Program-made: the position numbers and the translations under genes
In this document: positions 18,610 through 31,561 of the stretch, piece by piece
Layout of the letters: every line of letters begins with the position of its first letter
Numbering within the stretch: the stretch's first letter is position 1
Notes under the pieces: generated by a model
Told to the model about the DNA's origin: nothing
The model's input: only the letters and a program-made list of their open reading frames with translations
The model's database searches: none
Source of the DNA: Phycisphaerales bacterium
Lineage (GTDB): Bacteria; Planctomycetota; Phycisphaerae; Phycisphaerales; SM1A02
Assembly (NCBI GenBank): GCA_022446965.1
Contig: JAKVBV010000018.1
Location: 1-44,932, forward strand
Direction of reading: 5' to 3'
DNA: 44,932 nucleotides

Positions 18610-18656
18610 CCACCGTCCGATCCACTTCCAAGACATCCGTCTTTTTGGAGCCCTCC

Positions 18657-20810
18657 GTGGCCAATCCAGCCTTTCAACTGATCACTGAAAACATGCACTG
18701 TGCCAGCTGCGCCGGTGTCGTGCGTCAACGGTTGCTCAAGGAAGAGGGCGTGGTCGAGGTGGGCGTCAACGTGCCCGCCGGCATCGTGTCGGTCACCGGC
18801 ACGATCGATCCGGCCGACGCAGCAGACATGCTCACCAGTGTCGGCTACCGGGCACACCCAGCCGATGCTGCGCCGCGTCCCCGCCAGGGCGAACGTGAGG
18901 CTGCGGCCGTCGCCAAAGAGCGGCTGTGGGCCCGAAATGCCGCCATCGGTCTGGGCATCTGGGTGCCCTCGGCCGTGCTGCACTGGACCGTGGACGACGG
19001 ACAAGCCTGGCTGCAGTGGGTGATGCTCATTGCCGCCACGGCGGTCATCGCGATTGTCGGTCCGGGCTTCTTCTCGTCGGCCTGGGCCGCCGCCCGACGT
19101 GGTACCACCAACATGGACACGCTCATCAGCATCGGCGCCGGCACTGCATGGGCTTATTCCATGGTGCTGTTCGTGCTGATGCACTTGGGCGTGGAGCATG
19201 GACAACCCATGTATTTCACTGAGGCGAGCGCCTTGTTGGGCCTCATCAGCCTTGGACACTGGTTCGAAGCTCGCGCATCTCGCCGCGCAGGATCGGCCAT
19301 CCGCGAGTTGCTGGAACTCCAGCCCGACACGGCCGAACGCCTGCAGGATGACGGCACGACACGACACGTCGATATCGCCGATGTCATGCCAGGCGATCAC
19401 CTGGTCGTTCGCCCCGGCGGTCGTCTCCCCGTGGACGGCACGGTGATCGAAGGCGACTCGGAAGTCGATGAGTCGCTGATCACCGGTGAGAGTGAACCGG
19501 TACGACGACGTGTGGGCGATGATGTCGTCAGTGGCTCGCTGAACACCGTCGGCCGGTTGGTCATCGAAACCACTGCAACTGGCGCCGACTCCACGGTCGC
19601 CCGCATCGCCGAACTGGTCTCCAACACGCTTGGGTCACGGGCGGCGATTCAACGCCTTGCAGATCGCGTGAGCGCCGTGTTCGTGCCCGCCGTGTTGTGC
19701 ATCGCGCTGCTCACCGTGGTGGGCTGGACCATCCACGCCCTGACCGCGGATAACTGGACACACCTGCAGACCGGCATCATTGCCGCCGTCACGGTGCTCA
19801 TCATTTCTTGCCCCTGTGCGCTTGGTCTGGCCACGCCCATGGCCGTGATGGTGGGCACGGGCGAATCAGGACGCCGTGGCATTCTCGTGAAGTCCGCCGC
19901 GGCGCTGGAAGCAGCTGCGGCAGTGGACGAGGTGATCTTCGACAAGACGGGCACTTTGACCGAAGGCCGGCCAACGGTCACGGCGATCGAACCAACCGCC
20001 GGACACGACGACGCTGCGGTGCTGGCACTGGCCGCTGCCGCTGAATCGCCAAGTGAACATCCCGTCGCCACGGCCATCGTGGCGGCCGCCGTCTCGCGTG
20101 GGCTCACGCTCCCGGCAGCGGACGACTTCCGGGCGATTCCAGGGCAGGGTGTCACGGCGACGGTCGACGGACGCCTCGTCGAAGTGATGCGTGACGAACA
20201 CGTCGCGTGCGTGGTGCGAGTGGACGGCGAGGAGATCGGTCGAATCGACGTACAGGACGCGCCACTGCCCGATGCCACCGACACGATCTCGGCCCTGCAC
20301 CGAATGGGGCTCACCGTCACCATGCTGTCGGGCGACCGGGCGCACGCCGCCAATGCCATCGCCGAATCGATCGGCCTTAATGCGAAACATGTGAAGGCCG
20401 GTCACACGCCCGAATCCAAGGCGTCGTTCGTGACCGACCGCCCCACCGCCACCATCATGGTGGGCGACGGGCTCAACGATGCGGCTGCCCTCGCCAGTGC
20501 CACCGTGGGCATCGCCGTGGGCTCGGGCACCAACGTGGCGATCGACGCCGCTGATGTGGTCATTCCGGCGCACCGCCCGTCCGCGGTGCCGTTGCTGATC
20601 ACGATCTCCCGCCGCACACTGCGGGCCATTAAACAGAACCTGTTTCTGGCCTTCGTCTACAACACCGCCGTCATCCCGGTGGCCGCATTCGGGCTGCTGG
20701 GGACCTGGGGACCGCTGATCGCGGCCGGTGCCATGGCGGTGAGCGATGTCAGCGTCATTGGCAACACGATCCGCATGGGCCGCAGCCTCCGCAGGCATCT
20801 CGAGGCCTGA
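18657..20810 (+). CDS. Copper-type P1B ATPase (CopA-like)
   Basis: This is a heavy-metal exporting ATPase of 717 residues. An N-terminal HMA domain has the metal-binding MHCASC (Cys15, Cys18). The membrane metal site is SCPCALG (Cys385, Cys387), the phosphorylated Asp429 lies in DKTGT, and it has TGES, the nucleotide-site SEHPVA, GDGLNDAAAL and the TM5-like FLAFVYNTAVIP. CPC plus YN points to Cu(I). The last motif reads MAVSDVSVIGN where classical CopA has MxxSS, with Asp for the second Ser. GTG 18657 is chosen because GGAG lies 6 nt upstream. An in-frame TTG at 18645 overlaps that ribosome site. The divergent promoter is shared with the small ORF at 18591. Confidence 0.92.
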   Translation: MANPAFQLITENMHCASCAGVVRQRLLKEEGVVEVGVNVPAGIVSVTGTIDPADAADMLTSVGYRAHPADAAPRPRQGEREAAAVAKERLWARNAAIGLGIWVPSAVLHWTVDDGQAWLQWVMLIAATAVIAIVGPGFFSSAWAAARRGTTNMDTLISIGAGTAWAYSMVLFVLMHLGVEHGQPMYFTEASALLGLISLGHWFEARASRRAGSAIRELLELQPDTAERLQDDGTTRHVDIADVMPGDHLVVRPGGRLPVDGTVIEGDSEVDESLITGESEPVRRRVGDDVVSGSLNTVGRLVIETTATGADSTVARIAELVSNTLGSRAAIQRLADRVSAVFVPAVLCIALLTVVGWTIHALTADNWTHLQTGIIAAVTVLIISCPCALGLATPMAVMVGTGESGRRGILVKSAAALEAAAAVDEVIFDKTGTLTEGRPTVTAIEPTAGHDDAAVLALAAAAESPSEHPVATAIVAAAVSRGLTLPAADDFRAIPGQGVTATVDGRLVEVMRDEHVACVVRVDGEEIGRIDVQDAPLPDATDTISALHRMGLTVTMLSGDRAHAANAIAESIGLNAKHVKAGHTPESKASFVTDRPTATIMVGDGLNDAAALASATVGIAVGSGTNVAIDAADVVIPAHRPSAVPLLITISRRTLRAIKQNLFLAFVYNTAVIPVAAFGLLGTWGPLIAAGAMAVSDVSVIGNTIRMGRSLRRHLEA

Positions 20811-20894
20811 TCACCACAGCGCGGTGTGAATTGGGGGATAGAGCCCCGCCTCCTGATCGTAGACTCTGTTGAAGCCTCGACCAGGAGCGACACC

Positions 20895-22382
20895 ATGCCT
20901 CGCCCATTGGAACCACTCGATCCCAAAGACTTCGGTTATTGGGAAGCACACCACCTGCTGCAGCGGGCTGGGTTCGGCGGTTCTCCTGAACAGGTACTCA
21001 CGCTCACTGAGATGGGGCTCGATGGCGCTGTCGACCACCTGCTGCGCTGGCGAAGCGTGCCCGACCCGGTGGCCGACCCAGGCTTCAAGACCGACATCAT
21101 GCGACCTCCGACCGACGAAGAGCGACAGGCGTACCGCATGGCGCGGCGGGCCGACAACGAAGCAGCGCTCGAACAGGCACGCATGCGTCGGCAGGCGGCC
21201 CAACGTGAAGATCGTCAACAGATGGCCACGGCTCGTGACTGGTGGCTCACTCGGATGATCGAAACATCGCGACCGTTGCAGGAGAAGATGACACTGTTCT
21301 GGCACGGCCACTTTGCCACGGGCTATCGCCCTGTCGAAGATTCCTGGCACATGCTGAAGCAGAACGAATTGTTCCGGAACAACGCCACGGGTGACTTCAA
21401 GAACGTGTTGGTGAAGGGCATCATTCGCGACCCTGCGATGATCAAGTACCTGAACAACAATCAGAATCGCCGACAAGCTCCCAACGAGAATCTCGCCCGC
21501 GAGCTGATGGAACTGTTCACGCTGGGCGAAGGCAACGGCTACACCGAAGACGACATCAAGGAAGGCGCACGCGCCCTTACGGGCTTCACCTTCCGAGATG
21601 ACGATTTCGTCTTCAACAGCCGCAACCACGACTCGGGCACCAAGAGCATTTTCGGCCATCGCGGCAATCATGGCGCCGATGACTTCGTGGAGCTCATCTT
21701 CACACGGCCCACCAGTAGCACGTGGATCTGCTGGAAGCTGTACCGCTTCTTCGTGGATGACGCCGCCGCCTCGACCGAGCAGTCGATGGCTGTCGTCAAC
21801 GAGATGGGACGCCAAATGCAGCGCGCTCGATACACGGTCGACCCCGTCCTCGAAGCACTGTTCAAGTCGAAGCACTTCTATCACCCCACCCGCCGCGGCA
21901 CGATGGTGAAGAGCCCGATCCAACTGGTCGTGCAGGCCTGCCGCACGATGGACTTGCCGGCCCGCAACGTCCGTCGCCTCAACGACGCGTGCGCCACCAT
22001 GGGCCAGAGTCTCTTCAGCCCGCCCAGCGTGAAGGGCTGGGACGCCGGCACAGCCTGGATCAACACATCCACTTTGTTCACCCGCCAGAACACGCTGGTC
22101 TATCTGCTCACCGGCCGCGAGCCGGGCAGCAACCCGTGGGACGGCGGTGGCACACTCGACCACGACATGTCACGGCTCGTGTCCCACCTGCCCGACATTC
22201 CTCGTCGCGATCGCCCCAAGGATGCAGCCACGTATCTGGCTCGATTCCTTTTAGGAACGATGCCCGACGACTACCGATTGAACACCTGGGCCGATCTGGC
22301 TCGCGGCCGCGATCTCGATGCCGCCACCGTCACCCGACTGGTGGCCATCATCACCGCCGCCCCTGAGTACCAGCTTTGCTGA
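20895..22382 (+). CDS. DUF1800 family protein
   Basis: This 495-residue protein matches DUF1800: HHLLQRAGFGGSP near the N-terminus, WHGHFATGY, PNENLARELMELFTLGEGNGYTEDDIKEGARALTGFTF, the GNHGADDFVELIF segment, FKSKHFYHPTRRGTMVKSPIQLV, and SLFSPPSVKGWDAGTAWINTSTL. These genes almost always precede a DUF1501 gene, as here (12-nt gap). Roles in polysaccharide handling have been suggested for this pair in planctomycetes but not settled. No signal peptide is visible at the ATG chosen (20895, with AGGAG 9 nt upstream), unlike the partner. TAGACT at 20860-20865 is a possible -10. Confidence 0.9.
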   Translation: MPRPLEPLDPKDFGYWEAHHLLQRAGFGGSPEQVLTLTEMGLDGAVDHLLRWRSVPDPVADPGFKTDIMRPPTDEERQAYRMARRADNEAALEQARMRRQAAQREDRQQMATARDWWLTRMIETSRPLQEKMTLFWHGHFATGYRPVEDSWHMLKQNELFRNNATGDFKNVLVKGIIRDPAMIKYLNNNQNRRQAPNENLARELMELFTLGEGNGYTEDDIKEGARALTGFTFRDDDFVFNSRNHDSGTKSIFGHRGNHGADDFVELIFTRPTSSTWICWKLYRFFVDDAAASTEQSMAVVNEMGRQMQRARYTVDPVLEALFKSKHFYHPTRRGTMVKSPIQLVVQACRTMDLPARNVRRLNDACATMGQSLFSPPSVKGWDAGTAWINTSTLFTRQNTLVYLLTGREPGSNPWDGGGTLDHDMSRLVSHLPDIPRRDRPKDAATYLARFLLGTMPDDYRLNTWADLARGRDLDAATVTRLVAIITAAPEYQLC

Positions 22383-22394
22383 TGGAGCACTGTT

Positions 22395-23669
22395 ATGACT
22401 GAACACAATCCTTGGAGCCGACGCGACTTCATTCAACGAGGCACGGTCTTCGCCTCGATGGCCAGCACCGTTCCGGTGTTTCTGCAGCAGACCGCTGCAG
22501 GCGCCGCCACGCCGCTGGGTGCATTGACCTCGTCCATTCCCGGGATGGCGCAGGACCGCATCTTCGTGGTCGTGCAGTTGGGCGGCGGCAACGACGGGCT
22601 CAACACGATCGTGCCTCACGGCATGGACGAGTACTACCGCAAGCGGCCGTCGATTTCGATCAGCAAGCCCGGCACCACCGACGGCGCGCTCGCATCGGGC
22701 GTGCGTGGCGCCGAAGGGCTGGGCTTCAACCCGGCCTTCTCGGGATTCAAGTCGTTGATGGATGACGGCCGCGCCGCGGTGATCCAGGGCGTGGGCTATC
22801 CCAACCCGAACCGATCTCACTTCTCTTCCATGGACATCTGGCACAGCGGCAATCCCAATGGCCGCTCCGAAGGATGGCTCGGCCGATACTTCGACAACAC
22901 CTGCAACGGGACGCCTGATCCCCAGGCCGCCGTGGCCATCGGCAGCACATCACCACTGGCATTGATCGGCCGACAAACCCGCGCCGTGAGTTTCGAGAAG
23001 CCCGAGCTCTATCGATGGACCGGCGAAGACATCGACAACGACATGAAGCAGGCCTATCGCGGCGTGACGGGCGACCCCAACAAGGCTGATGACACCCTGG
23101 CCTTCTTGCGCCGCACGGCGATGGACGCCCAGATCAGTTCGTCCAAGGTGCGGCAAGCTGCAAGCCTCGCCCCCTTGGCGTCATTCCCGGGTGGCAATCT
23201 GTCGGACCAACTTCGCATGGTCGCCGCCATGATCCGTGCCGACCTGCCCACCCGCGTGTACTACGTCACGCTCGGTGGATTTGACACGCACGCCAACCAG
23301 GCGGGCCAGCATGCCCGACTGCTGCAGCAGGTGGGCGACAGCCTCAAGGCCTTCAGTGACGACCTCAAGGCCCAGGGCAATGACGGCCGCGTGCTCACCA
23401 TGGTGTTCAGCGAGTTCGGTCGCCGTGTGGCCCAGAATGGCTCCGGCGGCACCGATCACGGCACCGCAGCACCGCTGTACCTGATCGGCCCGATGGTGAA
23501 GCCCGGGTTCTTTGGACGCCACCCCAGTCTCACCGACCTCGACAGTGGCGATCTGAAGTACACCACAGACTTCCGTCAGGTGTACGCCAGCGTGCTGGAA
23601 GACTGGCTCAAAACCGACTCCGCAGCCGTGCTGCACAATCGATTCCAGAAACTCAACGTGATCGCCTGA
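22395..23669 (+). CDS. DUF1501 family protein with Tat signal
   Basis: This 424-residue secreted protein has a twin-arginine signal (SRRDFIQRG, then a hydrophobic stretch with MASTVPVF) consistent with folded export. The sulfatase/alkaline-phosphatase-like DUF1501 fold follows: VVQLGGGNDGLNTIVP, SHFSSMDIWHSG, TLGGFDTHANQ, FSEFGRRVAQNGSGGTDHGTAAPLYLIG and PSLTDLDSGDLKYTTDFRQVYASVLEDWL. These are its conserved metal-binding and core blocks. GGAG lies 8 nt before ATG 22395. It is co-transcribed with the DUF1800 gene. The substrate is unknown. Confidence 0.92.
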   Translation: MTEHNPWSRRDFIQRGTVFASMASTVPVFLQQTAAGAATPLGALTSSIPGMAQDRIFVVVQLGGGNDGLNTIVPHGMDEYYRKRPSISISKPGTTDGALASGVRGAEGLGFNPAFSGFKSLMDDGRAAVIQGVGYPNPNRSHFSSMDIWHSGNPNGRSEGWLGRYFDNTCNGTPDPQAAVAIGSTSPLALIGRQTRAVSFEKPELYRWTGEDIDNDMKQAYRGVTGDPNKADDTLAFLRRTAMDAQISSSKVRQAASLAPLASFPGGNLSDQLRMVAAMIRADLPTRVYYVTLGGFDTHANQAGQHARLLQQVGDSLKAFSDDLKAQGNDGRVLTMVFSEFGRRVAQNGSGGTDHGTAAPLYLIGPMVKPGFFGRHPSLTDLDSGDLKYTTDFRQVYASVLEDWLKTDSAAVLHNRFQKLNVIA

Positions 23670-23690: not shown

Positions 23691-24101
23691 ATGAAGCACG
23701 TGATCTCCATGTTAACTTGCGCAGCGCTGCTCACAGCCTGCGACTGTTCCACTTGCGACGTCGATACAGCAAAGACGGCCGACACCGTTCCCGCAGCCGT
23801 GACCATTGAACCCGTCTCAGCGCAACCAACCTCCACGGCGTGGTCGTTCTCCGTGAAGGGCATGCACTGTGGCGGCTGCGCCAACAGCCTCAGACAGGTG
23901 ATCAATGAGTGCAACGGCGTCATGACGGCGTCCGTGTCGTACGACGACTCGAGCGCGACCGTCAACGTGCGATCCAAGGATGCACTCGAGTGCGCCCTCG
24001 CCGTGTCCAAGGAACTTGGCTACGAAACAGGCGATCCGGAAGAACTTGTGTGGGACACCCAACCGGCCGACGGGGACGACGCCGGTGAAGCAGCCGGCTG
24101 A
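23691..24101 (+). CDS. Lipoprotein with heavy-metal-associated domain
   Basis: This 136-residue protein has a lipoprotein signal (MKHVISMLTCAALLTAC, Cys17), then a Cys-rich DCSTCDVD spacer, a Thr/Ala/Pro-rich linker and an HMA domain whose metal loop is GMHCGGC (Cys60, Cys63). The beta-alpha-beta pattern (SFSVKGMHCGGCANSLRQVI, MTASVSYDDSSATVNV, ALAVSKELGYETG) is intact. The tail is acidic. An outer-membrane- or periplasm-anchored copper-binding HMA protein is unusual, since most are cytoplasmic. It heads the operon 23691-27234 and starts leaderless after TACACT. Confidence 0.88.
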   Translation: MKHVISMLTCAALLTACDCSTCDVDTAKTADTVPAAVTIEPVSAQPTSTAWSFSVKGMHCGGCANSLRQVINECNGVMTASVSYDDSSATVNVRSKDALECALAVSKELGYETGDPEELVWDTQPADGDDAGEAAG

Positions 24102-24107
24102 GGCCAC

Positions 24108-25667
24108 GTGCTCGGCACACTCTTGATTGCAACACTCCTGTCGGCGCCTGCAGGGCCGTCCGATGCTGATGCGCTGCCTGGCGAGTACGCCTGGACCGTG
24201 AACGATCTGCACGCAGGGTGCGTCGCACCGAGCACGGAACGCGGCGCGATCGCGCTCCATGGTGACACGCTGGCCGCCGTGCATGCCAACTCGATGGAAC
24301 CCTTCCATTGGGGGCACCCGCTTGAACACCCGCCCAGTGGCATGGACACCTGGACGACCAACCGCGGTGGCATCGTGCTCGCCCGCCCCGACACCGGTGA
24401 GGTGATCGCCCTCCTCGAGGGCGAGCTCAAGGTGCTCACGACCCGCGGCAACCGCATGACGCAGTGCAACGGCCCCGCGGATGTAGCGTGCAATGGCACA
24501 CGTATCGCTGTCGCCGATCGCGGCAACCGCCGCATTCTCCTCCTGGACATGACCGGCGCCAACATGGGCATGTATTCATCGGCAGGCGAGCATGCCTTCG
24601 CACTGCCCTCTGGCGTTGCGCTCGACGAGGACAGCACGCTGTACATCACGGACGAAGCAACGCATCACGTGCATTGCATCGAAGCCGACGGCCGGCATCG
24701 CTGGAGCGTAGGCGGATGGGGCAAGGCGCCCGGCCGCTTTGCGGAACCGGCTGGCATCGACGTGCGCGACGGCGTGATACTGGTGGCCGATCGTCTGAAC
24801 CACAGGATTCAAGCACTACACGCCGACACCGGACGCGTGATCGACTGGTGGGGCATGCATGCCATCAAGCCACGAGAAGGCGACGGCAAGATCCACTATC
24901 CAGAAGACGTGGCCTTCACCGAGGACGGATGCGTCGTGGCCGAACCCTTCGAACGGCGTGTGCAGGGGTTCACGCTGGGCCGACCAGACAAGGCCAAGGC
25001 CCCCACCGGTCCCGTCGACAGCCAATCGCACTTCGGCCCTCGCATGGCCGTACACGGACGAGCTCTGGTGGTTTTTGAACCCGAGCTTCGCGCTTTCCAC
25101 CTACTCGACCTCGATCGCGAGATTCCCGTGCACACCACCACGTTTGGTGAACACGGCACTGGTGCCGGATGCGTGCAACTTCCGGTCGAAATGACACTGC
25201 ATGGCGATGGCGACGACTACACCTTCACAGCACGCGATGCCACCGACGGGCGCACGCACACGTGGACATTGCCCATGTCGACGCTCGAGCGACCGGGCTT
25301 TCATCCTGATCTTGCGGTCCTGCTGCAAGCCACAGCGCCCGATTCAACGGCACCGGTCTGGAGCCCGGCGCACAGCAGCGACACCACAGATGACGGCATC
25401 ACGGCGACGCTGCAGGGCGACAGCACCATCGCGATCACACGCGACGGCGCCACCACCAAGCCCATCGGCGGACACGGCATCGACCACGGCACGTTCTGGA
25501 ATCCAAGCGAACTGCACATCGACAGCCAAAGGCGTATCCTCGTACTCGACCACGGGAATCATCGCCTGCAGGCCTTCGATCTCGATGGCAACTGGCTGAT
25601 GACCTTCGGCACGGGCCGCGCGTACACCCCTAAGAACACACCAAGCATGCGACGACCCACCCCATGA
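24108..25667 (+). CDS. NHL-repeat beta-propeller, exported
   Basis: This 519-residue protein starts at GTG 24108, only 6 nt after the previous stop. A hydrophobic start (MLGTLLIATLLSAPAG) is a short signal peptide. The body has NHL-type repeats: GTRIAVADRGNRRILLLDM, ALPSGVALDEDSTLYITDEATHHVHCIEADG, GRFAEPAGIDVRDGVILVADRLNHRIQALHADTG, and near the C-terminus WNPSELHIDSQRRILVLDHGNHRLQAFDLDGNW. The repeats fall in two groups, with a divergent middle. NHL propellers bind ligands or partners rather than act as enzymes. The stop overlaps the next ATG (ATGA). Confidence 0.88.
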   Translation: MLGTLLIATLLSAPAGPSDADALPGEYAWTVNDLHAGCVAPSTERGAIALHGDTLAAVHANSMEPFHWGHPLEHPPSGMDTWTTNRGGIVLARPDTGEVIALLEGELKVLTTRGNRMTQCNGPADVACNGTRIAVADRGNRRILLLDMTGANMGMYSSAGEHAFALPSGVALDEDSTLYITDEATHHVHCIEADGRHRWSVGGWGKAPGRFAEPAGIDVRDGVILVADRLNHRIQALHADTGRVIDWWGMHAIKPREGDGKIHYPEDVAFTEDGCVVAEPFERRVQGFTLGRPDKAKAPTGPVDSQSHFGPRMAVHGRALVVFEPELRAFHLLDLDREIPVHTTTFGEHGTGAGCVQLPVEMTLHGDGDDYTFTARDATDGRTHTWTLPMSTLERPGFHPDLAVLLQATAPDSTAPVWSPAHSSDTTDDGITATLQGDSTIAITRDGATTKPIGGHGIDHGTFWNPSELHIDSQRRILVLDHGNHRLQAFDLDGNWLMTFGTGRAYTPKNTPSMRRPTP

Positions 25668-26041
25668 CTTCTCGACTCCTGATCGCCATCGCGCTCCTCT
25701 GCACCGGCTGCGCGTCCAGCTCAAACTCCGGCGTGAAGACACACGACGGAGCCTACGACGTGCAGTGGTCGCTCGTGGACATCGACAACATCCCGGTGGA
25801 TGAGTACTTCGCTGTGGAAGCAACGGTCACACCCACACCGACAAGCATGACCATCGACGCCGTCATGCCGTCGCACCGCCATGGCATGCTCAACGATGCC
25901 ACGATGGAACAACTGAACGCTGATACCTGGGTGGCCCATGACATGCTGTTCCATATGCACGGGCACTGGAGATTTCGCTTCGATGTGACCGACGCCGATG
26001 GCGTCGTGCACCGTGCCGAAGTGGATGTCGACATCGAATGA
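25664..26041 (+). CDS. YtkA-like lipoprotein, His/Met-rich
   Basis: This 125-residue lipoprotein has signal MTSRLLIAIALLCTGC with Cys16. The mature domain resembles YtkA/FixH-type Ig-like folds: YDVQWSLVDIDNIPVDEYFAVEATV, then MPSHRHGM and a HDMLFHMHGHWRFRFDVTDADG strand region. The Met and His clustering (MPSHRHGM, MLFHMHGHW) would suit copper binding. A single Trp stands next to the cluster. It overlaps both neighbours by 4-base ATGA junctions, so its level is tied to them. A YtkA-like role in copper or cytochrome-oxidase assembly is the family hint, not a demonstration. Confidence 0.8.
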   Translation: MTSRLLIAIALLCTGCASSSNSGVKTHDGAYDVQWSLVDIDNIPVDEYFAVEATVTPTPTSMTIDAVMPSHRHGMLNDATMEQLNADTWVAHDMLFHMHGHWRFRFDVTDADGVVHRAEVDVDIE

Positions 26042-27234
26042 TCGAAGCGGTCGTCATGATCGCGTTGGGGCAAGAGGTGGTCTTCACCGATCGCCAGCGT
26101 CGCATCATCGATCGCATGAGCCCTCCGCCGGCCCTCCCGGTGGACACCACCAACCGCGTGACCGACAACGCTGATGCGGCGAGCTTGGGCGCCCGCCTCT
26201 TCAAGACACGCACCTTCTCCGCAAGCGGTGCCGTGTCGTGCGACACCTGCCATGTCCCGTGGGAGGGCTTTGATGACGGCCGGAAACTCGCCAAGGGTGA
26301 AGGCGACGGCACTCGAAACACGCCCACGCTGCTGGGGGCGGCCCATCAGCGGTGGTTCTTCTGGGATGGCCGCGCTGATTCACTCTGGGCGCAGGCACTG
26401 CACCCGTTCGAAGCACCTGCTGAATTCGGATCCAGCCGCACCGACGCCGTGCGCATAATGCACGACACTCCTGATCTACGCGCCGCCTACGAGAACGTGT
26501 TCGGCCCATTGCCACCAATGGAGGATCTCGAGCGCTTCCCCGCTGGTGCGCGCCCGGGCACACCACAGTGGGATGCCATGACACCACCCGATCGTCATGC
26601 TGTGACCGAGGCCTTTGTGCACATGGGCAAGTCGATCGCGGCCTTTGAGCGCACGATTCCCTTTGCAACTTCAAAGTTCGATCGATGGGTGGCCGCTGGG
26701 CAGCCCACTGACACGGGACTCACGCAACAGGAACGCCGCGGCCTCGAACTCTTCAATGGCGCCGCGGGCTGTCGCAATTGCCACGGTGGTCCTCTATTCA
26801 CCGACCGGGCATTCCACAACATCGGCCTGCCCGAGCCCGACGGCAGTTTGCCCTCGGATCCGGGCCGCTCCGCCGGACTCGCCGAAGCCAGAACACATGA
26901 GTTTCGCGCCGGCGGTGAATGGTCGGACGACCCAAAGGGCGCCACCGCCCGCCGCGCCGCCACCGCCCGCGACGGACCGGAACATTGGGGTGCGTTCCGC
27001 ACTCCCACCCTCCGCAACCTGCCTGACACCGCCCCCTACATGCACGACGGTCGTTTCGCGACGCTGGCTGAGGTGCTGGCCTTCTACAACACGCTGGAAG
27101 ACCAGGTGCGGCTCGACCACCACCAAGAACAGGTGCTGACGCCGCTCAATCTGCCTCCAGAGGATCTTGCGGCGCTCGAAGCCTTCCTCCGCACCCTCGA
27201 TGACACGCCCGAAAAGGCTGCAGGCACGCCCTGA
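26038..27234 (+). CDS. Di-haem cytochrome c peroxidase/MauG-family protein
   Basis: This 398-residue protein has two haem-binding motifs: CDTCH (68-72) and CRNCH (245-249). Around them are ALGARLF, GEGDGTRNTPTLLGAAHQRWFFWDGRADSLWAQALHPFEAPAEFG and, late, FRTPTLRNLPDTAPYMHDGRFATLAEVLAFYN, all typical of the CcpA/MauG/MbnH superfamily. Members reduce peroxide or oxidise Trp or Tyr of a partner protein. The N-terminus (MIEAVVMIALGQE) has a very short, acidic hydrophobic stretch, so the export signal is weak, though c-type haem attachment demands export. The ATG overlaps the YtkA-like stop. It is last in the operon. Confidence 0.9.
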   Translation: MIEAVVMIALGQEVVFTDRQRRIIDRMSPPPALPVDTTNRVTDNADAASLGARLFKTRTFSASGAVSCDTCHVPWEGFDDGRKLAKGEGDGTRNTPTLLGAAHQRWFFWDGRADSLWAQALHPFEAPAEFGSSRTDAVRIMHDTPDLRAAYENVFGPLPPMEDLERFPAGARPGTPQWDAMTPPDRHAVTEAFVHMGKSIAAFERTIPFATSKFDRWVAAGQPTDTGLTQQERRGLELFNGAAGCRNCHGGPLFTDRAFHNIGLPEPDGSLPSDPGRSAGLAEARTHEFRAGGEWSDDPKGATARRAATARDGPEHWGAFRTPTLRNLPDTAPYMHDGRFATLAEVLAFYNTLEDQVRLDHHQEQVLTPLNLPPEDLAALEAFLRTLDDTPEKAAGTP

Positions 27235-27329: not shown

Positions 27330-29552
27330 ATGAAGCAGTGCATCTGTGCAACTGGTCTGGCCGCTGTTCTGACCGCTGTTGTGGTTGGTCATCAAGACGA
27401 CCCCAAACTTCAGGATCGCCAACCGCTCGTTCCGGGCCAGATCTGGACGAAGGCCTCTGACATCGCCCTGCCTGCGGGCAGCTTCGACAGCGTGGGCGAC
27501 ATCGAGATGACCTCCTGGATCCCGCTGAACAACTTCATGGGCAACCCCAGCACGGGTTCAGACTGCTGGGGCTACACCTCCCCGAGCGGACGCGAGTACG
27601 CGCTCTTCACCCATGAGTCCGGCACGGCCGTCGTGGAGATCACCGACCCCAACGACGCCACCATCGTTGGTGAGATTGATGGCCCGGATTCACTGTGGCG
27701 TGACATCAAGGTGTTCGGCTCACGCGCCTACGCGATCAGCGAAGGTGGAGAAGGTATCCAGGTGATCAACCTGACCAATGTGGACCTTGGTCTGGTGACA
27801 CTCGAGAACACCATCACCACCGGCGGCACCACCGCCACGCACAACGTGGCCATCAATGAAGACAGTGGCTATCTGTACCGCTGCGGCGGCGGCAGCAACG
27901 GCCTGCGTATCTACGACCTCAATGCCAATCCCAGCAACCCCACGTACATCACGTCGTGGCCCACCAAGTACGTGCACGATGCGCAGATCGTCACCTACCC
28001 CGACGGCACCCCCTACGCCGGACGCGAAATCGCCTTCCTGTGCGGCGGCTACAACGGCGGTTGGGGCGAAACCGGCCTTACGATTCTCGACGTCACAGAC
28101 AAGAGCAACATCTTCATCGTTGGTGAGACGGAGTACAGCAATAACCACTACAGCCACCAAGGCTGGCTCTCGGAAGACTTCCAGTACTTCTATCTCAATG
28201 ACGAATTGGACGAGCAGAACACCGGATCAACCACGACGACGCGCATTCTTGACGTGAGTGATCTGAGCAGCCCGTTCCTGGCGGGCACCTGCTCCACAGG
28301 ATCGAGTGCCATCGATCACAACCTCTACATCCTCGGCGACACGATGTATCAGGCCAACTACCGTAGTGGCGTGCGCATCTTCGACATCTCCAACCGGCTC
28401 AATCCCGTGCAGACCGGTTGGTTCGACACGTATCCCGAAGATGACGGCGCTGCATTCAACGGGCTGTGGTCGGTGTATCCCTACTTCCCCAGCGGCACCG
28501 TGATCGGATCCGATCTCGAACGCGGCCTGTTCGTGTGGCGGATGGAACCACCAGCCATGACGGTGAGTGTGGTGACCGAGTTGCCCGAGATGATTTCACC
28601 GGCCGGCGGTCAGTCCTTCGACATCGAAGTGAACTTCGCTGAGGGCATCGGACTCGATCCCGCCGCCTCCAAGCTGTACTGGAGTGACAGCAAGGGCGAC
28701 CACAGTGCCGTCCTCGACATCGTGGACAACGGTAATCCCATGCTGCTTCGTGCCGAGTTCGGACCGAGCGTCTGTGGTGATGTCGTGGGCTTCCACGCCA
28801 TCGTGACCGCCGACTCGGGCGATTCACGCAGCGTGGGCATGGGCGCCGCCTTGTCGGCCGACGACGTGCAGCTGGGCACCGATGTGGACTTCGAAGACAA
28901 CAGCGGCTGGACCACCAGCGGCACGGCCACCGACGGTCAATGGGACTTCGGCGTGCCGGTCGACTGCAACCGCGGCGACCCCCCATCGGACCACGACGGC
29001 TCCGGTTCAGCAGCCCTCACCGACAACTCCGCTGCCAGCAGTTGCAACAGCGATGTGGATGGCGGCTACACCGAACTCACCTCGCCCACGTTGGATGCCT
29101 CCAACGGTGGTCAGCTGAGCTATGCCCGCTGGCTCGACAACACGTTCGGTGCTTCGCCCGGCGAGGACAGCATGTACGTGCACATCTCGGATGACAACGG
29201 CGCCACGTGGACGCAGTTGGAGCAGGTGGGCCCCACCGGCCCGGATGCCAGCGGTGGCTGGGTCACCGCAGAGCACGATCTCGATGGCATCGCCGGCTAC
29301 ACGCCCAGTGCCACCACCAAGTTGCGATTCACTGCGGAAGACACCGGCGATGGTTCGGTGGTCGAAGCAGCAGTGGATGCAGTGCGCATCTTCAGCGTGG
29401 TCTGTGATGACACGCAACCATGCCCGGGTGATCTCAATGGTGACAGCACCGTGGATGTGAACGACATTCTCGAGGCCATCGCCGGATACGGCGATCAGTA
29501 CGACGTGGAGGACATCCTCGCCGTGCTAGCCGACTTCGGCACGGACTGCTGA
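27330..29552 (+). CDS. Choice-of-anchor B family protein with dockerin-like tail
   Basis: This secreted 740-residue protein begins with a signal peptide (MKQCICATGLAAVLTAVVVG). Residues about 40-410 form the choice-of-anchor B propeller: SDCWGYTSPSGREYALFTHESGTAVVEI, SLWRDIKVFGSRAYAISEG, THNVAINEDSGYLYRCGG, SHQGWLSEDFQYFYLNDE, DHNLYILGDTMYQANYRSGVRIFDIS and GLWSVYPYFPSGTVIGSDLERGLFV. A beta-rich region follows, then at the end CPGDLNGDSTVDVNDILE and YDVEDILAVLADFGTDC, a calcium-loop dockerin-like tail. GAGAGGA precedes the ATG by 9 nt. TAGAGT at 27283-27288 may be its -10. Role: cell-surface attachment or binding, unproven. Confidence 0.88.
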   Translation: MKQCICATGLAAVLTAVVVGHQDDPKLQDRQPLVPGQIWTKASDIALPAGSFDSVGDIEMTSWIPLNNFMGNPSTGSDCWGYTSPSGREYALFTHESGTAVVEITDPNDATIVGEIDGPDSLWRDIKVFGSRAYAISEGGEGIQVINLTNVDLGLVTLENTITTGGTTATHNVAINEDSGYLYRCGGGSNGLRIYDLNANPSNPTYITSWPTKYVHDAQIVTYPDGTPYAGREIAFLCGGYNGGWGETGLTILDVTDKSNIFIVGETEYSNNHYSHQGWLSEDFQYFYLNDELDEQNTGSTTTTRILDVSDLSSPFLAGTCSTGSSAIDHNLYILGDTMYQANYRSGVRIFDISNRLNPVQTGWFDTYPEDDGAAFNGLWSVYPYFPSGTVIGSDLERGLFVWRMEPPAMTVSVVTELPEMISPAGGQSFDIEVNFAEGIGLDPAASKLYWSDSKGDHSAVLDIVDNGNPMLLRAEFGPSVCGDVVGFHAIVTADSGDSRSVGMGAALSADDVQLGTDVDFEDNSGWTTSGTATDGQWDFGVPVDCNRGDPPSDHDGSGSAALTDNSAASSCNSDVDGGYTELTSPTLDASNGGQLSYARWLDNTFGASPGEDSMYVHISDDNGATWTQLEQVGPTGPDASGGWVTAEHDLDGIAGYTPSATTKLRFTAEDTGDGSVVEAAVDAVRIFSVVCDDTQPCPGDLNGDSTVDVNDILEAIAGYGDQYDVEDILAVLADFGTDC

Positions 29553-29629: not shown

Positions 29630-31561
29630 ATGGGCACATGCGACGGATGTTCCGGCTGCGACCACGGCTGCGGCAGCGGCCCACCGGTGACGTCCACACC
29701 CGACGGTCGCCCGCGCGTGATCTGGGATGGCGATTGCACCTTCTGCCGGCGTTGGGCCACACGCTGGTGCACTACCACCGGCCGCACATTTGCATGGACG
29801 CCATTGCAGAACATCACCCCTGATGAAGGCCTCGATGTCGACGCCCTCAAACACGCCGTCCATGTGCAGCAACCAGACGGCACGTTGTGCAGTGGTGCTC
29901 GAGCCGTGTGCACCGTGATCGCCCAGGGTGGCGTAAGCCCCTGGCCGTTGCGGGCCATGTCGATCCCCGGTCTTTCCGCGGTGGCCAATACCGCCTATCG
30001 CTGGATCGCTCGACATCGCAACGGGGCCGATCGCGCGTGTCGTGCACTCATGGGCAAGGTGGAAATCCCCAACACATGGCAACTCACCCGCCGGGTGGTG
30101 CTCCGGTGCATGGGGTTGATCTACCTCCTTGCCTTCATCTCACTGGGCACGCAGATCGACGGCCTCGCGGGCAGCGAAGGCCTCCGACCCATCGGTGCGA
30201 TGCTCGAGATGCTGCGTGTGCAAGCCCCTGAACTCGGCGTGCTGCAGGTGCCCACCGCACAGTGGTTCGGCGGCGACGGCTTGTTGCAAGCCACCTGGAT
30301 TGTCGGTGCCATCGCGGCCGTGACATTGCTGCTCGGCGTCGTCCCGTTGGCGGCGTCGGTGCTGTGCTGGTTGTGCATGTTGTCGCTGATCACCGCCGCC
30401 ACGATCTTCACCAGCTACCAGTGGGACATGCTGCTGCTGGAAGCGGGACTGTTGACGATCTTGTGGAGCCCACGCACGCTGACGCTGCACCGCAGTACGA
30501 CACGACCATCACCACTCGTGCGATGGATGTGCGTGCTGTTGCTTGTGAAGCTGATGGTGAGTTCGGGCTGGGTGAAGCTCGCGTCCGGTGATCCCACCTG
30601 GACCAACGACACGGCGCTGCTGTATCACTTCTGGACGCAGCCGCTGCCGTGGTGGCCGGCGTGGTATGCCGCGCACATTCCAGATGTGTTCCTGTGGTTT
30701 CTGAGCAAGGCCATGTTTGCCGCCGAGCTGTGGCTGCCATGGCTGTTACTGCTCCCGCGGATCCCGCGAACCGTTGCTGCACTGGGCATCATCGTGCTGC
30801 AACTGGGCATCGCACTCACCGGCAACTACGGCTGGTTCAACTGGCTCACAATCGTGCTTGCCCTTGCCATGCTGGATGACGCCATGCTCCTGCTGCTGTG
30901 GCCACGAGCAATTCGACATCGGTTCCGCACCGGCCCCCAACCTCGGCCGTCACCGTGGACGCGCCGCATGATCGGCGTGTGCTGCGCCGCACTGGCCACA
31001 TGCAGTGTGGCCACCCTGCCCGCGTTCGCATCAGCATTGCCCGGGCCAGCTCGCCGGGCGCTCGCTGCACTACAACCATGGCACTTCACGTCCAACTACG
31101 GGCTCTTCGCCACGATGACCACCACGCGGCCTGAGATTGTCATCGAGACGAGTGATGACGGCGAGCACTGGACCCCGATCGCGTTCAAGGCCAAGCCCGG
31201 CCCGGTCGATCAGGCGCCAGCACTGTCCCAGCCCATGATGCCCCGGCTCGATTGGCAGCTGTGGTTCGATGCGTTGACGTACGAACGGCTGCTGCAGGCG
31301 GGACACCTCACGCCTGATCGCGCCTGGGACCGCTTCAGCACACGCTTTGTGCTGCCAGACCTCGTGCGTGAGCTTGATGCAAGATCGCCATCGGTCAGAC
31401 GGCTGTTGGCCGATGTTCCTGAGGCGCCGTCATGGTTGCGGTGGTCCTTGTGGCAGTACACCATTGCGCCGTCGGGCCCGGACTGGTGGACACGCACGAA
31501 GCTGCTTCAGTCGACCCCTCGTCGCCTTCGCGCCGCCGACGCCAGCGCGTCAACACACTGA
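29630..31561 (+). CDS. DUF393 domain fused to lipase maturation factor
   Basis: This 643-residue fusion begins with a Cys-rich metal-like start (MGTCDGCSGCDHGCGSG), followed by a DCC/DUF393 redox domain with DGDCTFC (Asp33, Cys36, Cys39; residues about 28-130). The rest is a polytopic lipase-maturation-factor (LMF/PF06762-type) protein with about ten TMs: LLYHFWTQPLPWW, FLSKAMFAAELWLPW and, later, TGNYGWFNWLTIVLALAMLDD are its hallmark blocks. Human LMF1 matures lipases in the ER. The bacterial function is unknown. Its 3' end overlaps the opposing YcjF-like gene by 167 bp. Confidence 0.88.
   Translation: MGTCDGCSGCDHGCGSGPPVTSTPDGRPRVIWDGDCTFCRRWATRWCTTTGRTFAWTPLQNITPDEGLDVDALKHAVHVQQPDGTLCSGARAVCTVIAQGGVSPWPLRAMSIPGLSAVANTAYRWIARHRNGADRACRALMGKVEIPNTWQLTRRVVLRCMGLIYLLAFISLGTQIDGLAGSEGLRPIGAMLEMLRVQAPELGVLQVPTAQWFGGDGLLQATWIVGAIAAVTLLLGVVPLAASVLCWLCMLSLITAATIFTSYQWDMLLLEAGLLTILWSPRTLTLHRSTTRPSPLVRWMCVLLLVKLMVSSGWVKLASGDPTWTNDTALLYHFWTQPLPWWPAWYAAHIPDVFLWFLSKAMFAAELWLPWLLLLPRIPRTVAALGIIVLQLGIALTGNYGWFNWLTIVLALAMLDDAMLLLLWPRAIRHRFRTGPQPRPSPWTRRMIGVCCAALATCSVATLPAFASALPGPARRALAALQPWHFTSNYGLFATMTTTRPEIVIETSDDGEHWTPIAFKAKPGPVDQAPALSQPMMPRLDWQLWFDALTYERLLQAGHLTPDRAWDRFSTRFVLPDLVRELDARSPSVRRLLADVPEAPSWLRWSLWQYTIAPSGPDWWTRTKLLQSTPRRLRAADASASTH

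Follow-up and report, generated by a model that had tools for sequence, protein, structure and literature searches.

MauG-type di-haem enzymes with a known protein partner are, to our knowledge, few: MauG itself, MbnH and, by inference, SACCP/CorB. MbnH reportedly converts a tryptophan of its partner, MbnP, to kynurenine. MbnP/MbnH pairs have been described far beyond methanobactin operons (PMC3621798; this and the other papers cited here by PMC number were consulted as partial texts), and in methanotrophs the proteins CorA and MopE bind copper through two His residues and a Trp-derived kynurenine, with a co-transcribed MauG-like di-haem protein as the suspected maker of that kynurenine (PMC3912023). 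Here we describe a comparable gene pair in a 44,932-nucleotide (nt) stretch of a Phycisphaerales bacterium (JAKVBV010000018.1 of GCA_022446965.1; contig C23 of an assembly totalling 2.24 Mb), hereafter the window, in which the gene for a YtkA-like putative lipoprotein overlaps that for a di-haem protein of MauG/MbnH type. As far as our searches reach, the pair is a real, widespread and apparently undescribed relative of the MbnP/MbnH kind, whose chemistry we put forward as a proposal; literature searches on YtkA, MauG, FixH, LVIVD and copper, with subscription journals thinly covered, returned no paper on it. We are highly confident that the two proteins form a dedicated functional pair, and in our preferred reading an enzyme of MauG/MbnH type serves a CrdA-like copper protein as its one partner and may well oxidise it. 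Computation supports the pairing through gene linkage, a di-haem clade of its own, residues shared with MauG and a partner fold like that of CrdA. The core features of the window are:

25664 to 26041, forward strand: YtkA-like putative lipoprotein, 125 residues, CrdA-like beta-sandwich, core part
25865 to 25888, forward strand: MPSHRHGM, residues 68-75 of the YtkA-like protein, proposed Cu(I) loop
25952 to 25969, forward strand: HMHGHW, residues 97-102 of the same protein
26038 to 27234, forward strand: di-haem protein, 398 residues, MauG/MbnH type (CCP_MauG, PF03150, 4e-38), core part
26239 to 26253, forward strand: first CxxCH of the di-haem protein, C68-H72
26770 to 26784, forward strand: second CxxCH, C245-H249
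27085 to 27087, forward strand: Tyr350, aligned with MauG Tyr294 (axial haem ligand)

In MbnP/MbnH (TIGR04052/TIGR04039), too, a partner gene lies beside a MauG-like di-haem gene with a Tyr aligned to MauG Tyr294; the best profile match of the window di-haem protein is 6e1c, titled MauG-like protein associated with microbial copper homeostasis, and LVIVD propeller genes neighbour part of both the MbnP-linked and the YtkA-linked sets. However, the partner of MbnH is MbnP (PF20243), whereas the window partner has the YtkA/CrdA fold and no PF20243 match, and the window-type di-haem proteins form a clade of their own, with W106, W117, A202 and an insertion, far under the MbnH cut-off (130.6 versus 362.85 bits for TIGR04039). 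MopE/SACCP and CorA/CorB likewise couple a copper protein with a relative of the di-haem peroxidases; CorA and MopE differ in fold, with 15 and 21 beta-strands (PMC3912023), from the CrdA-like loop protein of the window, a separation made by description and not by sequence.

The linkage was followed first within the family of the window genome. With the YtkA-like protein as query, 46 of the 151 genomes of the order matched: two from another family, the window genome itself and, of the 45 further genomes listed for its family, 43. We inspected 45 places, with up to 19.5 kb around each, and the counts refer to 43 family loci, the window not counted; left out of these are L155 (genome G089, other family), which gave no neighbourhood matches, and L148, from another family of the order, in which NHL, YtkA, di-haem and LVIVD genes are all present. 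Genome G087 is represented by L144 alone, its second place (on C35) standing outside the counts. The di-haem gene adjoins YtkA in 41 of the 43 loci, and thus in 41 of the 41 informative ones, the contigs of the remaining two stopping just past YtkA; in 37 loci it lies on the YtkA strand.

Beyond the family, 294 genomes sampled across the phylum were searched with PF13115, blind to haem genes; this listed 66 places, all of which were inspected with flanks of about 1.5 kb (30 loci) or 3 kb (36 loci) per side, contig permitting. A di-haem gene was near 25 of the 27 places bearing an MPxHxHG motif, the other two being L205, where the contig stops, and L209, with none within about 9 kb on either side. 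The corresponding figure for motif-less places was 0 of 39, many of these being weak or other YtkA-like domains. The suggestion of the earlier, sequence-only note on this DNA that the two genes travel together is thereby borne out. Outside this phylum, the pair turns up in Myxococcota, Gemmatimonadota and Pseudomonadota. Among five genomes sampled around G433, the Myxococcota metagenome-assembled genome (MAG) that carries L034, eight YtkA places have an HxH motif: five of them with a di-haem gene (in two cases on the opposite strand, within about 2 kb), one where the contig stops and two without such a gene in the stretch inspected. In the phylum of L040, a Proteobacteria MAG, at least 15 of 349 genomes match, a lower bound since scoring covered just part of the candidates in each genome. 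Of these 15, 14 have the pair, whereas L257 has neither the motif nor a di-haem partner. Five plasmid records hold clear pairs (Sinorhizobium fredii, Gemmatirosa kalamazoonensis, Polaromonas naphthalenivorans, Cereibacter azotoformans and Photobacterium), a sixth record, Nonomuraea, being left out of the set. Over 98 distinct pairs, the window not counted, 91 run YtkA then di-haem on one strand, with a median of 177 nt between the domains.

Two of the plasmid loci show further arrangements. In Polaromonas (L258:7518-8351) a single protein carries a DUF3703 domain followed by the YtkA domain, and in Cereibacter azotoformans (L259:6723-7826) a Sel1-repeat protein immediately precedes the YtkA/di-haem pair.

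The counts bear directly on whether the genes are mere chance neighbours, or a product of general operon structure without joint function. That HMA, DUF1800/DUF1501 and CopA genes vary between relatives would fit such a reading, but it is contradicted by the linkage within the family, by the contrast between motif-bearing and motif-less places in the phylum and by recurrence in other phyla, and we give it almost no credence.

The di-haem protein is indeed of the MauG/MbnH type that the earlier note had assigned. Besides its CCP_MauG match, its AlphaFold model (predicted local distance difference test, pLDDT, 92.3) retrieves MauG complexes at the top of a Foldseek search, with 6e1c at rank 29, and its W109, Q119, P123, E129 and Y350 align with MauG W93, Q103, P107, E113 and Y294, of which we take W93 to be the inter-haem Trp and Q103, P107 and E113 the distal Gln, Pro and Glu. 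Among 99 distinct clade members these positions are kept in 99 (Y350), 99 (W109), 95 (Q119), 94 (P123) and 99 (E129). Its differences from MauG lie in the missing equivalent of Trp199, discussed below, in neighbours that are not mau genes (a Pfam scan found no mau proteins among the nine proteins of the window run) and in a score under the TIGR03791 equivalog cut-off for the MauG of tryptophan tryptophylquinone (TTQ) synthesis, TTQ_mauG (140 versus 443.85 bits).

The axial ligand also bears on a second reading, in which the two proteins are a redox pair without protein modification and a di-haem peroxidase or copper oxidase draws electrons from YtkA-bound copper. Bacterial cytochrome c peroxidases have a Met axial ligand on the electron-transfer haem, whereas the clade has Tyr at this position in 99 of 99 distinct members, and a Tyr axial ligand favours the bis-Fe(IV) state (PMC6405878). 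A plain peroxidase is disfavoured because of this ligand. BthA, which has the same Tyr ligation, nevertheless reduces peroxide (PMC6405878), a point that counts for the redox pair and against oxidation of the partner; the His/Met loop of the YtkA-like protein would in addition suit a copper site able to cycle, and CopA is near in the window lineage. Taken together, we consider a redox pair of this kind distinctly unlikely.

A tree of 179 di-haem entries (169 distinct, midpoint root) gathers all 109 YtkA-linked entries (99 distinct), together with L031, into one clade, with 36 MbnP-linked and 33 other di-haem entries outside it; the two branches that meet at this root have support values of 0.73 and 1.0. 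Counting distinct entries only, with the 10 surplus di-haem entries removed, leaves the proportions unchanged. Because most YtkA-linked di-haem proteins were found via YtkA, the tree shows exclusivity, not frequency. Residues marking the clade in its 99 distinct members are W117 (99), A202 (99), D114 (98), R134 (94) and W106 (93), the W117 position being occupied by Glu or Arg in the 69 non-clade proteins, and the insertion is marked by D297 (94) and F289 (92). A scan made with the di-haem protein only, covering the best 80 of 585 loci, gave 11 closest relatives (37-49% identity), all with YtkA: ten have it in the same locus, including L035, split by a frame change, and L041, which is divergent, while L031 is a truncated locus from a genome whose YtkA gene lies at the end of a different contig. 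The genomes with the more distant di-haem proteins L042, L055, L058 and L074 gave no YtkA match.

The predicted structure of the partner is a beta-sandwich (pLDDT 90.2) whose closest solved structure is H. pylori CrdA (Z 13.2, 2.1 Å, 99 residues; next row 9.9), a protein also recovered by profile search (E 6e-7). CopC/PcoC reach Z 7.5-8.1, and these matches add little because filamin, Runt domains and unrelated Ig-like folds score at the same level. The window protein matches no YtkA model at E<=0.1, and G000 gives no PF13115 match at E<=0.001; of the 51 sequences aligned with the window protein, 43 match PF13115 (E<=0.1, best 7e-10) and 6 match FixH (E<=0.1). B. subtilis CtaK (YtkA) shares the Pfam family, and the accounts of CrdA and CtaK, in the parts consulted, mention no di-haem partner for either.

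CrdA and the window protein agree in the position of the metal loop as well as in fold. The proposed Cu(I) cluster of CrdA comprises Met69, 72, 75, 78 and 99 (PMC9182242), and in our mapping M68, the HxH loop, M75 and M98 of the window protein align on Met69, 72, 75 and 99. Judged from this alignment, the His/Met loop would sit at CrdA's proposed copper site; the two differ in that CrdA, as far as the partial text describes it, uses Met only and no His (PMC9182242), unlike the HxH loop here. We predict that the partner binds copper and regard this as likely. In 98 distinct di-haem-linked proteins, M68, H71 and H73 are each kept in 98, P69, G74, M98 and W102 in 97, and G100 in 96, with M75 (66) and H97 (73) less well kept. 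This set was pre-filtered with a pattern that partly fixes the HxH motif, and it excludes 9 motif proteins for which the inspected stretch showed no di-haem gene. Conservation of the His, Met and Trp positions, which the earlier note had made a test of its idea, is found for M68, H71, H73, M98 and W102, and it is the His pair of MPxHxHG that tracks the enzyme.

We propose that the His/Met loop of the YtkA-like protein would bind Cu(I), and that the di-haem enzyme would use peroxide (or oxygen) to reach a high-valent di-haem state and oxidise its partner next to this loop, most likely at W102, to yield a kynurenine-like product. Such an oxidation would tune or create the copper site, as proposed for MopE and CorA and as reported for MbnP. 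Oxidation of the partner near the copper loop is favoured because it follows the same logic as CorA/MopE and MbnP/MbnH, with a different partner fold. Whether the enzyme modifies the YtkA-like protein at all we put at slightly short of an even chance, and W102 as the modified residue is a possible but doubtful assignment.

Several observations weigh against this proposal. The earlier note had taken a single Trp beside the His/Met cluster as the tell-tale sign. The protein has three (W35, W88 and W102), of which W102 is the sole invariant one in the YtkA-like alignment; its invariance in the linked set stands, but its specificity does not. Of 28 legible YtkA domains that lack a di-haem neighbour, 23 carry W102, a count read visually from 31 segments, many of them low-scoring, with L184, L185 and L218 excluded as illegible and 8 more of the 39 motif-less places yielding no segment. 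Among unlinked segments of at least 68 bits all 7 carry the Trp, three of the seven being profile seeds, and W102 also aligns with a Trp of CrdA (our numbering). Because most YtkA domains without a di-haem neighbour keep it, W102 cannot alone indicate oxidation, and it may be only a core residue. The Trp as a decisive, enzyme-specific signature is ruled out by these unlinked domains and by CrdA.

The remaining adverse points concern the genes and the enzyme. MauG Trp199, the relay to substrate, has no counterpart in the alignment of the di-haem protein. The window di-haem protein begins with only a short hydrophobic stretch (MIEAVVMIALG, 26038-26070); many of its relatives have longer, signal-like N-terminal segments. 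The scanned loci yielded no gene in which YtkA and di-haem parts are fused, and the copper context is thin, with a match to CopA, the one copper gene searched for, near 5 of the 43 family loci. The motif-bearing YtkA genes L302, L303 and L304 have no di-haem gene in the inspected stretches, L302 and L303 carrying a variant HGHGSS form.

As an aside on these three genes, they are possibly orphan YtkA forms with the HxHG motif.

In the window the pair is embedded in a one-strand run of nine proteins, in the order CopA, DUF1800, DUF1501, HMA, NHL, YtkA-like, di-haem, LVIVD and DCC1-LMF1. Its other members are:

18645 to 20810, forward strand: CopA-type Cu P-type ATPase, first gene of the run, an arrangement shared with four near relatives
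20826 to 22382, forward strand: DUF1800 protein, lineage-specific neighbour
22395 to 23669, forward strand: DUF1501 protein, lineage-specific neighbour
23691 to 24101, forward strand: HMA-domain putative lipoprotein (PF00403, 2e-11), lipobox LTAC by eye, peripheral
24108 to 25667, forward strand: NHL beta-propeller (PF01436, 2e-18), signal-like N-terminus
27330 to 29552, forward strand: choice-of-anchor-B (LVIVD) propeller
29630 to 31561, same strand: fusion of a DCC1-like domain and a lipase maturation factor (LMF1), after the LVIVD gene

Intergenic spacing from CopA through the di-haem gene is 15, 12, 21, 6, -4 and -4 nt; from the end of the di-haem gene it is another 95 nt to the start of LVIVD. 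The four genes from HMA to di-haem are placed and spaced as the earlier note had them, with one 6-nt gap and two 4-nt overlaps. Its CopA pump, placed there 5 kb upstream, is also present and belongs to the run that reaches HMA and continues to the di-haem gene: CopA, DUF1800, DUF1501 and HMA lie on one strand with gaps of only 15, 12 and 21 nt. The downstream LVIVD propeller had been left out of that run.

NHL adjoins YtkA in 43 of 43 family loci and LVIVD is at most 5 kb away in 36 of 43. Four of the five loci with CopA (L111, L112, L113 and L115) also have DUF1800 and DUF1501, and in the fifth, L138, CopA is separate and on the opposite strand. Apart from the window, HMA stands beside the unit in L115 only, out of 43 family loci; these were scanned by tblastn and for motifs, a search that a diverged HMA gene could escape. 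The conserved unit in the family is thus NHL, YtkA-like, di-haem and LVIVD, because these recur whereas CopA, the DUF proteins and HMA rarely do. The four-family neighbourhood that the earlier note proposed to search for recurs in the case of NHL, YtkA-like and di-haem, and HMA, which it had counted as a member, does not follow. HMA as a core member is rejected on the same two occurrences. The DCC1-LMF1 gene has an equivalent position in L111, L112, L113 and L115.

The recurrence of LVIVD brings in the strongest rival to oxidation of the YtkA-like protein, in which a propeller, most likely LVIVD, is the client: YtkA would give copper to a four-His tunnel site and the di-haem enzyme would oxidise an LVIVD Trp. 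The residues H171, H216, H276, H330, W80 and W123 of LVIVD are kept in 41 of 41 planctomycete domains (window and paralogues counted) and in 14 of 14 domains from other loci, in an alignment that excludes matches spanning <250 or >420 residues; the four invariant His together with W80 and W123 suggest a metal site in the propeller. Beyond its place in the family unit, LVIVD neighbours the Pseudomonadota pair L249, and 12 of the 36 di-haem loci linked to MbnP have it at a distance of at most 10 kb. In a phylum search for LVIVD, 16 of the best 30 loci (window counted) have a di-haem gene within about 1.5 kb and the other 14 do not. Nor did tblastn with the window NHL and LVIVD find either within 14-16 kb of the five plasmid pairs (Pseudomonadota, Gemmatimonadota), and Pfam detected no propeller among the 5 scanned neighbour proteins of these pairs.

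Precedent for a propeller client comes from two directions: in B. subtilis the YtkA-family protein CtaK has been linked to the assembly of CuA (PMC13344008), and in the mtoX-SCO1-mauG cluster of methanethiol oxidase, with a proposed Cu/TTQ site (PMC5739008), a propeller, a copper-handling protein and a MauG homologue are likewise clustered, though with MtoX and SCO1 in place of LVIVD and YtkA. A weak profile alignment, with a probability of only 25%, matches LVIVD H276 to the HH pair of MtoX and LVIVD H330 to H188 of MtoX. LVIVD falls short of the methanethiol oxidase model NF052453 (E 0.061, 11.7 of 650 bits), and a PDB profile search with it gave nothing significant (best E 0.075, haloalkylphosphorus hydrolase). 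A relationship of LVIVD to MtoX is only suggestive, and on balance we judge the propeller unlikely to be the client.

A broader, improbable extension would make choice-of-anchor-B propellers unrecognised copper enzymes with a four-His tunnel site, matured by YtkA (MbnP in Bacteroidota) and a MauG/MbnH-type di-haem enzyme. If true, this three-part scheme would cover mtoX-SCO1-mauG and explain MbnP/MbnH beyond methanobactin producers.

Under the preferred reading, an enzyme dedicated to a CrdA-like copper partner, a widespread clade with one fixed partner family would offer a test case for how di-haem enzymes choose their targets, in small, expressible proteins. The pair suggests a further bacterial way to finish or use a periplasmic copper site, and gives a starting point for asking what LVIVD propellers do, and what MbnP/MbnH does in organisms other than methanotrophs. 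Finally, in Olleya aquimaris (L058:4818-10948) two LVIVD genes, an unassigned gene of 451 residues, MbnP (PF20243, 2e-25) and a CCP_MauG di-haem gene are contiguous.

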